A stretch of DNA of 58,425 nt. Source: an uncultured Sporosarcina sp. (GTDB lineage Bacteria; Bacillota; Bacilli; Bacillales_A; Planococcaceae). The position numbers and the translations under genes were made by a program. This document shows, one piece after another, positions 51,123-58,425 of this stretch (positions are counted from its first letter, which is position 1; each line of letters starts with the position of its first letter). The stretch lies in NCBI GenBank assembly GCA_948469885.1, contig CAOKMT010000012.1, positions 1 to 58,425 on the forward strand, given 5' to 3'. The notes under the pieces are model-generated. The model was not told the origin of the DNA and made no database searches. It saw nothing but the letters and a program-made list of their open reading frames with translations.

Positions 51123-51288
51123 TTCTTATCTAGAGAGGTATAGGGACTGGCCCGATGACACCTCAGCAACCGCCATTTTGGCAAGGTGCTAATTCCAGCA
51201 AGTCGGTAAAGACTTGGAAGATGAGATTTGATTCATTCAAAACGAGAGTCATCTTCCTTATTTTTACTAAGGCGATGACTCTTTTTTG
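51123..51288 (+). promoter_or_regulatory. SAM-I (S-box) riboswitch with terminator
   Basis: The conserved S-box core is present: AGAGAGG, then GGGACTGGCCCGATGA, CCTCAGCAACC, AAGGTGCTAATTCCAGCA and GACTTGGAAGATGAGA. The aptamer occupies about 51123-51228. It is followed by a terminator stem AGAGTCATC (51245) with GATGACTCT (51274) and a T run, the usual expression platform. Binding SAM favours the terminator and switches off yitJ-metE. Confidence 0.97.
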
Positions 51289-55754: not shown

Positions 55755-56924
55755 ATGAGTCAGACGAGTCAGCTTGAAAAAGGGTATTTCGGACAATTCG
55801 GAGGTAGTTTTGTCCCACCTGAACTGCAAAATGTATTAAATATTTTAAATGAAAATTTCAATAAATATAAAGATGATGAAGAATTCATTGAGGAATTCCA
55901 TTATTACTTGAAGGAATATGTGGGGAGAGAGACACCTCTCTATTATGCGGAACGACTCACCAATAAATTGGGTGGCGCCAAAATTTATTTGAAAAGAGAA
56001 GATATTAACCATACAGGTTCCCATAAGATTAACAACGTGCTTGGACAAATCCTACTGGCAAAACGAATGGGTGCAAAACGTGTCATTGCGGAAACGGGTG
56101 CCGGTCAACACGGCGTGGCAACTGCTACGGTTTGTGCGATGTTCGGCATGGAATGTACCATCTATATGGGCGCAGAAGATACAGAACGCCAAGCACTAAA
56201 TGTGTTCCGTATGGAATTATTAGGAGCGAACGTCGTCGCTGTATCTGAAGGACAAGCCCGCCTTAAAGATGCGGTGGATGCAGCATTTGCCGACCTTGTT
56301 GAAAACTACGAGAATACGTTTTATCTACTGGGGTCTGCTGTTGGTCCCCATCCGTTCCCAACGATGGTTAAACATTTCCAATCGGTCATTAGTCAGGAAA
56401 GCAGACAACAAATTCTTGAAAAAGAAGGCAAACTTCCTTACGCTGTCATCGCTTGTGTCGGTGGTGGAAGTAATGCGATCGGTTCTTTTGCAGAATATCT
56501 GCCAGATGAAGACGTTCGATTAATCGGAGTGGAGCCGAGCGAAGCAGCAACCTTAACAACAGGGACTGCCGGCCAACTGCATGGCTTTAAATGCATCGTT
56601 TTACAAGACGAACAAGGCACCCCCCTACCGACTTATTCGATTGCCGCCGGGTTGGATTACCCGGGATGCGGTCCCGAACATAGTCATTTGAAAATGACAG
56701 GTCGTGCGGATTATGTGTCGGTGACGAATGAAGAAGTATTGGAAGCATTCCAGCTATTATCCAAGTTGGAAGGGATCATTCCCGCGTTAGAAAGTGCTCA
56801 TGCCGTAGCGCATGTCTTGAAATTAGCTCCGACGCTTGACCAAGACAAAAGTGTAATTGTTAACATTTCCGGACGTGGTGACAAAGATGTCGCACATGTT
56901 TTTGAAATGCTAAAAGGCAACTAA
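55755..56924 (+). CDS. trpB: Tryptophan synthase beta subunit, stand-alone
   Basis: A 389-residue PLP enzyme that joins indole and serine to tryptophan. It starts [18 protein letters not shown]; the PLP lysine is K91 in HTGSHKINN, the active-site Glu in [10 protein letters not shown], the phosphate loop [10 protein letters not shown], and the COMM-domain [13 protein letters not shown]. The length is that of the canonical TrpB1 partner of TrpA, but no other trp gene is nearby. It may be an extra copy for indole salvage, or part of a scattered trp pathway. Confidence 0.93.
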
Positions 56925-56937
56925 CTAATAGAATCTC

Positions 56938-56980
56938 ATCCCGGATCTTTGACAAGCTAAGTCTAGATTCGGGATTTTTT
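56938..56980 (+). terminator. Terminator of trpB
   Basis: ATCCCGGATCT and AGATTCGGGAT pair (one mismatch) around a 16-base loop and end in a T run. Confidence 0.85.
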
Positions 56981-57170
56981 GTAAACCTTTCATTATGTAA
57001 AAGATTTCCTATGATTTCTCTTTATTTTAAAGAATGATTGAGTCCACGATTCATTGGGGTTGTTACTCTGTATCGTTGAACTCTCCCCACTCTCACTTCG
57101 TTTAGATATGGGGATTCCTAAGAACATCGGCGTAACCGCCAGATCAATCGCGCCTCGGCGTGATTGCGTC

Positions 57171-57273
57171 CAGATTTTTTCGAGCTTGAGGCCGGCACGA
57201 TGCCGGTCATGCAGTCGTCGCGACAGGACGTCGCGGTCTTAGACTGCCTTCTTAAGCTCCCCTTAAAAATCTG
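57171..57273. repeat. Structured repeat, copy A, closed by a long stem
   Basis: The outer stem CAGATTTTT (57171-57179) pairs with AAAAATCTG (57265-57273), and GAGCTT (57182-57187) with AAGCTC (57254-57259). Inside, 57190-57251 is the 62-base unit: a hairpin GCCGGC/GCCGGT, then GCAGTC/GACTGC enclosing GCGAC-AGGAC loop-GTCGC. It aligns without gaps to copy B at 49 of 62 positions. Confidence 0.65.
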
Positions 57274-57284
57274 TGACATCCGCG

Positions 57285-57346
57285 GGCCGACAGGATGTCG
57301 GTCATGCAACCGTTGCCACAGGACGTGGCGAACTTAGGTTGTCTTC
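57285..57346. repeat. Structured repeat, copy B, with compensatory changes
   Basis: The 62-base unit recurs with 13 differences from copy A. Eight of these form four compensatory pairs: one in the first hairpin (GCCGAC/GTCGGT), two in the long stem (GCAACC/GGTTGT) and one in the inner stem (GCCAC/GTGGC); a further change gives a G-T pair. The unpaired ACAGGAC loop is unchanged. This is the signature of selection for pairing, in RNA or single-stranded DNA. Confidence 0.65.
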
Positions 57347-57359
57347 CCTTGAACTTGAA

Positions 57360-57444
57360 TCAGCAGGGAGTTTGAACTCCCCTTGATTTTAAATGCATTT
57401 TAGCATTCATCCCGCCACCTATGGAAGTGGCGGACTTCTGCTGA
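57360..57444. repeat. Multibranch palindromic unit
   Basis: TCAGCAG (57360-57366) and CTGCTGA (57438-57444) close a region with three internal hairpins: GGGAGTT-TG-AACTCCC, AAATGC/GCATT and CCGCCAC/GTGGCGG. It is not a tRNA: arms and loops do not fit, and there is no TTCGA loop. It could be the right end of a mobile relic. Confidence 0.55.
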
Positions 57445-57535
57445 AGCAAGTTAATAAACGCTTTATCAAATATCGTTTGATAGAATTTTCAAACAAATGT
57501 ATGCTAGATATATAACCAAAAGGAGGTATGACCTA

Positions 57536-58336
57536 ATGCATGTAACTTCACTATGGAGATATCCTGTCAAATCGATGATGGGCGAAGAAATGAATGCTTG
57601 TGATGTAACTGAAAAAGGATTGCTCGGTGACAGGGCATACGGTGTAATCGACGAAGAAACCGGCAAACTCGCGAATGCAAAAAATCCTAAAAAATGGCCG
57701 GACATGTTCCGTTATCGCGCTTCGTACATGGAACCGCCCCAGTTGTCCGAACCGATTCCGCCAGTCCGTATTACCCTGCCAAACGGGCAATCCATTCGTA
57801 GCAACGACAACGAACTAAACACCCGATTAACCGAAAGCTTTCGAAGAACCGTCACACTTTCCTCACCATCATCAATAGAAGTCGAATTTGAAGGGTATAT
57901 TCCTGAAGGCATACAAGAACTTGACAACCCTGGGACTGTTTTTTCAAAGGCATCCCCCGAAGATACTTTTTTCGATATCGCAATGGTCCATATTATTACA
58001 ACATCCACAATTGAGACTTTACGCAAATTGACACCTGACAGCCGAATCGAGCCGCGGCGTTTCCGCCCGAATCTCATTCTGGATGTGCCCGAGGCTGAAG
58101 GATTCATCGAGGAACAATGGGTGGGCAAAATAATTACAATCGGCGATCATGTACAGTTGAAAATCCTCCAACCGACAAAGCGATGCATCATGACAACACT
58201 CGCCCAAGGAGATTTACCAAATGACCCGAATGTCTTAAGAACCCTTGCCCGTCAAAACAACGGAAATTTTGGCGTCTATGCGGAAGTGGTCAAAACCGGT
58301 CTTGTCAAAGCAGGAGATTGTGTAGTTATCGACTAA
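57536..58336 (+). CDS. MOSC domain protein
   Basis: A 266-residue protein with an N-terminal MOSC-N-like beta part, VTSLWRYPVKSMMGEEM and GLLGDRAYGVIDEETGKLA, and a MOSC domain with the conserved cysteine at about residue 216 in PTKRCIMTTL. MOSC proteins handle sulfur in molybdenum-cofactor enzymes or act in N-hydroxylated compound reduction. AAAGGAGG precedes the ATG at 57536; an in-frame ATG at 57497 lacks a site. No molybdoenzyme gene is adjacent. Confidence 0.88.
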   Translation: MHVTSLWRYPVKSMMGEEMNACDVTEKGLLGDRAYGVIDEETGKLANAKNPKKWPDMFRYRASYMEPPQLSEPIPPVRITLPNGQSIRSNDNELNTRLTESFRRTVTLSSPSSIEVEFEGYIPEGIQELDNPGTVFSKASPEDTFFDIAMVHIITTSTIETLRKLTPDSRIEPRRFRPNLILDVPEAEGFIEEQWVGKIITIGDHVQLKILQPTKRCIMTTLAQGDLPNDPNVLRTLARQNNGNFGVYAEVVKTGLVKAGDCVVID

Positions 58337-58348
58337 AACAAAGATAAA

Positions 58349-58376
58349 ACGCCAAGTCATTCTACCTTGGCGTCTT
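58349..58376. terminator. Terminator of the MOSC gene
   Basis: ACGCCAAG and CTTGGCGT pair around an 8- to 9-base loop, then CTTCCTTT. It may also serve a convergent gene beyond. Confidence 0.7.
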
Positions 58377-58391
58377 CCTTTATTCTAAAAA

Positions 58392-58425
58392 TTAAGTTTT
58401 CTGAACTTCTTCTGTTAATGTATGA
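58392..58425 (-). CDS. Possible C-terminal end of a minus-strand gene
   Basis: On the minus strand the edge reads in frame HTLTEEVQKT then TAA at 58394-58392, just beyond the MOSC terminator. Ten codons are too few for a call; it is listed because a convergent gene would fit the bidirectional terminator. Confidence 0.3.
   Translation of the reverse strand, partial: HTLTEEVQKT

Follow-up and report, generated by a model that had tools for sequence, protein, structure and literature searches.

A block of dense hairpins in the window, the whole 58,425-nucleotide stretch of DNA from an uncultured Sporosarcina sp. that was analysed, contains two similar units, copy A at 57190-57251 and copy B at 57285-57346, which form the sole long direct repeat within 56300-58425. 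The locus raises the question of what these units are, to what kind of element they belong, and what keeps their hairpins intact. The original prediction treated the block as one structure of 390 bp, representing either a large noncoding RNA or a non-autonomous IS200/IS605-like element, possibly an omega-RNA relic of a lost TnpB.

Identity and covariation of the paired units

The two copies align over 62 nt without gaps at 79% identity (49/62). By manual count they differ at 13 positions. Three helices contain four matched pair changes between them (unit positions 6/14, 25/55, 26/54 and 33/43), the pair 22/58 passes from G-C to G-T, and the ACAGGAC loop is invariant; this tally agrees exactly with the one originally reported. 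The leading CCCCA/TGGGG hairpin and the TCAGCAG...CTGCTGA unit described in the same prediction are both present, and the absence of a coding frame holds as well, since just mechanical ORFs of 57-63 aa (minimum ORF length 50 aa) overlap the units. Folding of 57118-57460 gave z-scores of -7.24 for the plus strand and -5.89 for the minus strand.

An alignment of 60 copies (59 distinct) was built from the two copies of the window and 58 taken from the 75 listed of 105 eligible ones, eligibility requiring at least 3/5 Watson-Crick pairs in the first hairpin. Standard pairs occupy 95.9% of the 1176 pair cells against a shuffled mean of 80.3%, although the former percentage is somewhat flattered because copies were partly chosen on first-hairpin pairing. 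Both sides of a pair have changed in 167 cells, compared with 34.6 after shuffling, and the covariation score is 0.471 against 0.170 for shuffled alignments and no more than 0.105 for slid structures. The pair changes of the unit exceed chance.

In a covariance-model search both units proved to be members of the Rfam family RF01690 ('Bacillaceae-1'), read on the minus strand, with 66.8 bits for A and 71.0 bits for B at a curated cut-off of 35 bits, so that their identity is secure and the earlier reading of the units as structured RNA is borne out by a catalogued, strongly covarying family. Our own model, R1, gave 81.6 and 86.2 bits for modules A and B, respectively, both copies having been in its building set. 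The module is self-contained and about 66 nt in size. Its conserved loops read UCCU on the Rfam strand and AGGA on the opposite strand; module B has both, while module A has one of the two, its first loop being ACGAT. The window's own genome contains 43 RF01690 matches, 40 of them above the cut-off, and a pattern scan of named genomes returned at least 118 stretches, with Lentibacillus, Oceanobacillus, Neobacillus, Metabacillus, Tumebacillus, Brevibacillus, Lysinibacillus and Solibacillus among the genera listed. In four copies from genome G072 (L382, L386, L391 and L394), the second hairpin loop of the module holds an extra insert of about 33-44 nt with AGGA motifs.

A passage of Weinberg et al. 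2010 (PMC2864571) describes Bacillaceae-1 as an RNA whose strand is uncertain and whose function is unknown, though 'probably not' cis-regulatory. The units of the window agree with RF01690 in sequence and two-hairpin structure; what differs from the description in that passage is that the motif occurs here as a building block both of stable-RNA spacers and of several frameworks of interspersed repeats. The Bhal-1 stem-loop family of B. halodurans, given as 74 bp and 36 copies in a part of PMC2267715, is similar as far as its description goes. The motif has been catalogued since 2010, and it now looks like a module shared by several scattered Bacillales repeat families; neither such a role for RF01690 nor its abutting of mature RNA ends was found in literature titles and abstract openings, while supplements could hold a mention.

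The modular repeat and its frameworks

The 390-bp structure proposed originally did not hold together as one unit: a TnpB right end (57076-57141) is joined to a separate 313-bp repeat (57142-57454). The features of the locus are as follows.

57076-57141, minus strand: relic of a lost TnpB-type element, namely its right end with the 3' scaffold of the omega-RNA, ending in TTCAA at 57076
57142-57454, plus strand: modular interspersed repeat (framework I), sharply delimited by (g)ATCAATCGCGCC ... AAGTTAA
57142-57185, plus strand: left (L) piece of framework I, with a AATCGCGCC/CGTGATT hairpin in the fold; query positions 124-167 matched alone in several copies
57188-57253, plus strand: module A (Bacillaceae-1), the AGGA-loop strand being plus; Rfam reading 57192-57258, minus strand
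57283-57348, plus strand: module B (Bacillaceae-1); Rfam reading 57287-57353, minus strand
57352-57454, plus strand: right (R) piece of framework I; query positions 333-435 matched alone in many copies

The R piece forms a long hairpin, TCAGCAG (57360-57366) with CTGCTGA (57438-57444), which encloses inner hairpins. Module A is located at the tip of a AGATTTTTTCGAGC/GCTC..AAAAATCT hairpin, and the same hairpin occurs without a module in loci L048 and L051, as judged by eye. A search of the own genome with 57020-57470 returned 53 DNA matches including the query itself; none contained anything before 57133, and many began at or near 57142/57143 or stopped at 57454, sharing one or both ends. These ends recur in other species of the genus. 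Neither a target-site duplication nor a terminal inverted repeat was evident by eye in the listed flanks of framework I copies. The comparison of empty sites envisaged originally showed no empty trpB-MOSC site for the window's own locus among the matches listed from 60 other genomes of the genus. Carriage of the repeat by plasmids or phages was considered and rejected for lack of a match for 57142-57454 in either collection; 57040-57500 likewise had no megablast match in E. coli.

The repeat starts (57142) exactly where the TnpB right-end homology stops (57141), as though it had displaced or truncated the remainder of the TnpB element. The left flanks of other listed framework I copies look unrelated.

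In framework I copies, anything from no module to two modules stands between the L and R pieces: L048 and L051 have no module, L034 and L035 only module B, and L032 both. The module also occurs well beyond this framework. We compiled 308 copies from the own genome, from loci of relatives and other families (mostly best-scoring, and hence biased to the consensus), and from 125 exact pattern matches in named genomes. Framework I accounts for 51 of them, framework II for 59, III for 53 and IV for 29, while 11 are mixed and 105 lack any signature. The module thus lies in one of four frameworks in 192/308 copies; the signatures were defined after looking at the copies, and 33/514 control windows of the same loci carry one. 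Sequence information around the module is close to zero: it does not exceed 0.13 bits at any position nine or more bases before the module or beyond the end of the 67-mer. Two pairs of orthologous loci from related species, L070/L079 and L074/L078, differ by one module; the genomes compared are G247 with G205 (about 86 bp) and G196 with G231 (about 59 bp). Such differences between species could be losses rather than gains.

Beside protein genes (mechanical ORFs), where both neighbours are co-directional, both orientations are common, with 72 copies having the AGGA strand as sense and 85 the Rfam strand (p 0.34). The named genomes (35 vs 23, p 0.15) disagree with the remaining genomes (37 vs 62, p 0.015), and these p-values are indicative only, because copies within one genome are not independent. 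No consistent sign of replication-strand bias was seen by eye in the coordinates of four genomes, contigs being assumed to start at the origin.

The view of the module as an exchangeable repeat unit is well supported: its presence does not depend on the framework, and several distinct frameworks share it. We read the whole block, with a probability of roughly 0.55, as a 66-bp relic of a TnpB right end followed by a 313-bp non-autonomous BOX-like repeat, whose Bacillaceae-1 module is shared with other repeats and copied from site to site. The module itself we take to be a non-autonomous, structurally constrained unit. It would persist mainly through site-to-site copying, by conversion between copies and/or a trans-acting activity, and its hairpins may be kept since folding is needed for copying or because it renders a transcribed structured spacer harmless. 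RF01690 matches would then need a different annotation, as building blocks of repeats rather than small RNAs, and the question arises of what copies a 66-nt hairpin unit among distinct repeats.

The closest architectural parallel is offered by the BOX elements of pneumococcus and S. suis, which according to parts of PMC3049150 are likewise interspersed, foldable, and composed of a left piece, variable middle modules and a right piece. One boxB module is described there as common to two S. suis BOX frameworks, so a middle module shared by different outer frameworks is found in both systems. In the same source, BOX elements are reported to show inverted repeats at their termini as well as target duplications, neither of which was seen by eye in the RF01690 repeats. 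The RF01690 module also differs in occurring in at least four frameworks and many genera, and the likeness is one of architecture, not of sequence comparison.

Several observations weigh against the copied-module reading. Signatures of the four frameworks are missing from 105/308 copies, and the analysis turned up no enzyme that would mobilise the module. The lack of an empty site among the listed matches and of target-site duplications or terminal inverted repeats by eye counts against it too, as does the chance that the module differences between species are losses. Conserved G.T pairs closing both hairpins can pair on the AGGA strand only. Moreover, the strong orientation bias and tight placement of copies in tRNA and rRNA operons suggest an RNA role for some of them.

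Stable-RNA operons and the CsrA hypothesis

A predicted tRNA or an rRNA probe lies no more than 400 bp away from 23/308 copies (Tumebacillus avium copies being counted twice), and the Rfam strand is sense in 21 of these 23. A cmscan analysis of 17 loci, with mature ends placed by Rfam models, showed that 21 of the 30 modules listed have their 3' end no more than 2 nt from the mature 5' end that follows, or 19/28 unique ones once two T. avium copies listed twice are subtracted, while the previous mature 3' end is equally close in 5/30. In some lineages, then, the module lies right against mature tRNA and rRNA 5' ends. One could hypothesise that the Rfam-strand module is a structured spacer at the mature 5' end of tRNA, 5S or 16S that would aid processing, the interspersed copies being captured derivatives. 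The near-constant 3' gap beside a varying 5' gap points in this direction, as does the tight placement at 16S (G262), at 5S (G426, Tumebacillus) and at tRNAs (Tumebacillus, B. changyiensis, B. paralicheniformis, G408). However, most fetched copies, those of the window included, lie outside such operons, tRNA spacers are short, so that closeness to mature ends is partly forced, and 15/21 tight copies as listed come from one genus (T. avium and G398), which makes the pattern a lead and not a proof of function. Nine of the 30 copies do not fit: L249, L226, L156, L197, L238, L173, L174 and one each in L160 and L222; in L173 the module abuts the 23S 3' end, and in L174 it stands on the opposite strand against 16S. 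On the whole, we regard this reading as unlikely.

Two observations on these operons stand apart. In two genomes of genus g32 (L166/L167 vs L174), the module occupies the same 16S-start site in opposite orientations, and in L155 (G426) the rRNA operon has the order 16S - module - 5S - 23S, with 5S between 16S and 23S.

The AGGA strand has its own candidate function. The reverse complement of Bacillaceae-1 has been proposed to bind CsrA in a passage of PMC4333381. If this strand were transcribed, its two A-GGA-Y loops might bind a CsrA dimer, and the copies could jointly buffer CsrA. Loops of this kind correspond to the general CsrA consensus, and the G.U pairs closing the hairpins fit the AGGA strand. 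A PrrB_RsmZ match on the plus strand reached 25.6 bits, under the cut-off of 44. CsrA-sequestering RNAs of the CsrB/RsmZ type likewise present repeated hairpins with GGA loops on one strand, whereas RF01690 has five-base AGGAY loops, is dispersed rather than gathered in one sRNA gene, and occurs in genomes without csrA. Overall, the CsrA reading is possible but weakly supported, the evidence being mixed, and we give it an outside chance.

Co-occurrence favours it at first sight. Among 299 Bacilli genomes, csrA was detected in 64/67 RF01690-positive and 115/232 negative ones. In 250 genomes of the family, 181 have both, 10 RF01690 only, 43 csrA only and 16 neither, an association with p 1.2e-5 when kinship is disregarded; per-genome RF01690 counts reach at least 19 at the top of the family survey and at least 16 at the top of the Bacilli survey. 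Against this, copies and genomes are not independent, and after stratification by genus the odds ratio of the link is 3.4 (p 0.066), a single genus, g7 (p 0.008), carrying the signal. RF01690 is present in 10/26 csrA-less family genomes, so csrA is not found in every carrier, and G082 and G091, which lack both csrA and fliW (the latter missing in 25/26 csrA-less genomes), hold 20 and 66 RF01690 matches. Stable-RNA operons transcribe the opposite, non-AGGA strand in 21/23 listed copies. A further point against the CsrA reading comes from a part of PMC8208703, in which eight B. subtilis Bacillaceae-1 loci are given as absent from every earlier B. subtilis annotation.

The loops themselves give a divided picture. 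In 161 distinct modules the AGGA loop occurs in the second hairpin of 129 and the first of 99, both having it in 72 and neither in 5. Across 145 modules, the second bases of the two hairpin loops read GG in 77, CG in 35, GC in 24, CC in 2 and other in 7 (association p 0.014 on 138 modules). G is kept in both loops in only 77/145 modules, which speaks against a decoy, while CC in merely 2 of 145 implies that one GGA loop is nearly always kept.

Genomes lacking csrA yet rich in copies provide a natural control by which the CsrA proposal can be tested. In genus g11, a GGA loop is kept in one or both hairpins by 22/24 modules of the csrA-containing G072 and by 42/57 of the csrA-less G082 and G091 together (p 0.08), with helices equally intact in both groups. 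This contrast leaves out modules with a second loop longer than 7 nt, and after duplicates were removed it drew on 39/66 matches for G091, 19/20 for G082, 28/30 for G072 and 44 entries for G000. The count without deduplication and the loop-length rule is 27/29 vs 41/57 (p 0.026); stricter pairing filters give p 0.05-0.13, and single genomes p 0.06-0.30. When G000 is added to the csrA-containing side and six other genomes to the csrA-less side, the figures become 57/65 vs 53/72 (p 0.052), with p 0.003-0.045 under stricter filters. Small csrA-less sets keep GGA in 7/7 modules (G058), 1/1 each (G209, G076 and G239), 1/3 (G095) and 0/2 (G136).

Pairing preferences, a conceivable route by reverse transcription, and the TnpB end

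The original prediction regarded covariation as showing selection on pairing. This is plausible but unproved, since G.T and A.C are equally rare in the helices, which could also result from hairpin-templated correction. Palindrome correction is the background to a reading in which the hairpins drift purely as DNA, intrastrand template switching keeping them perfect with no selection on pairing. In 161 distinct modules, G.T fills 40 and A.C 43 of 2576 helix cells; the doubtful pair 18-56 was left out of this count, which also includes some copies whose first hairpin is out of register. With that pair excluded, interior G.T versus A.C gives no preference for either strand. Nevertheless, loop bases and joints, which such correction would not keep, are strongly conserved, and helix P2 covaries strongly despite its interruption by another hairpin. 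G.T also exceeds A.C at the left-out pair (39 vs 2) and in the outer stem (116 vs 23). The pairs closing the two hairpins are G.T in 191/223 and T.G in 189/223 modules, and thus pair only on the AGGA strand, to which the outer stem leans likewise; these counts, like those of the loop bases, leave out modules with fewer than 4/5 first-hairpin Watson-Crick pairs. We therefore consider pure palindrome drift highly unlikely. A pseudoknot between loop and tail (AGGA with UUCC) was also considered and rejected, no loop-tail pair being among the 40 top-scoring column pairs listed.

Template jumping by reverse transcriptases suggests another route of movement, which seems to us a distant prospect: the module would be an RNA-level mobile unit moved by reverse transcription, the joined copy recombining back. 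On reaching the 5' terminus of a processed stable RNA (tRNA, 5S or 16S), the enzyme might run off it and jump to the 3' end of the module RNA. Such a process would explain why module ends are sharp and inverted repeats not visible, why hardly any bases separate the module from mature 5' ends while the distance on its opposite flank varies, and why one strand prevails in stable-RNA operons; the copy in L174, on the opposite strand against 16S, does not fit.

The flank of the repeat is unrelated to the units. Positions 57076-57141 (fold z -2.11) align with the stretch that directly follows tnpB in seven elements, to an identical TTCAA end: L329 and L336 in the own genome, L328, L335 and L339 in G140, L330 in G233 and L332 in G215. 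These relatives emerged only with tnpB loci, and not from the own-genome search with 57020-57470. By the general anatomy of TnpB elements and their omega-RNA, this segment is securely identified as a TnpB right end, an omega-RNA relic. It shares right-end sequence, hairpin and TTCAA terminus with IS200/IS605-family TnpB elements, but differs in that neither tnpB nor a left end was seen at the window locus: 57455-57700 had no significant tnpB or left-end match, and the upstream part of TnpB elements gave no usable left end. The earlier suggestion of a relic of a lost TnpB is accordingly upheld for 57076-57141, through seven aligned 3' flanks, and fails for the 62-nt units, which are unrelated to TnpB elements; relatives of the right end were located at tnpB loci, whose 3' flanks are without units.

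That the units themselves belong to an IS200/IS605 or TnpB omega-RNA element can be given almost no credence, because, although the flank is such an end, no module occurs in the TnpB 3' flanks of the seven elements and no Y1 transposase was found in G000, G182 and G249. In 29 TnpB and 12 Y1-transposase loci searched, L and R repeat pieces occur only in L346, as a separate copy, and module matches are limited to a marginal one in L360 (E 0.02-0.1) and 11 bases in L355. Y1 transposase is present in 5/8 genomes searched and was not found in G000 (88% complete), G182 and G249; of these, G182 is complete in a single contig and carries at least 19 RF01690 matches. A Y1 transposase (REP/RAYT) as the mover was rejected on the result for these three genomes.

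Elsewhere in the window, a SAM riboswitch (RF00162) was detected at 51123-51227 on the plus strand with 98.5 bits. The ORFs downstream of it, named by eye, are one of 624 aa of a methionine-synthesis type and one of 766 aa resembling metE.
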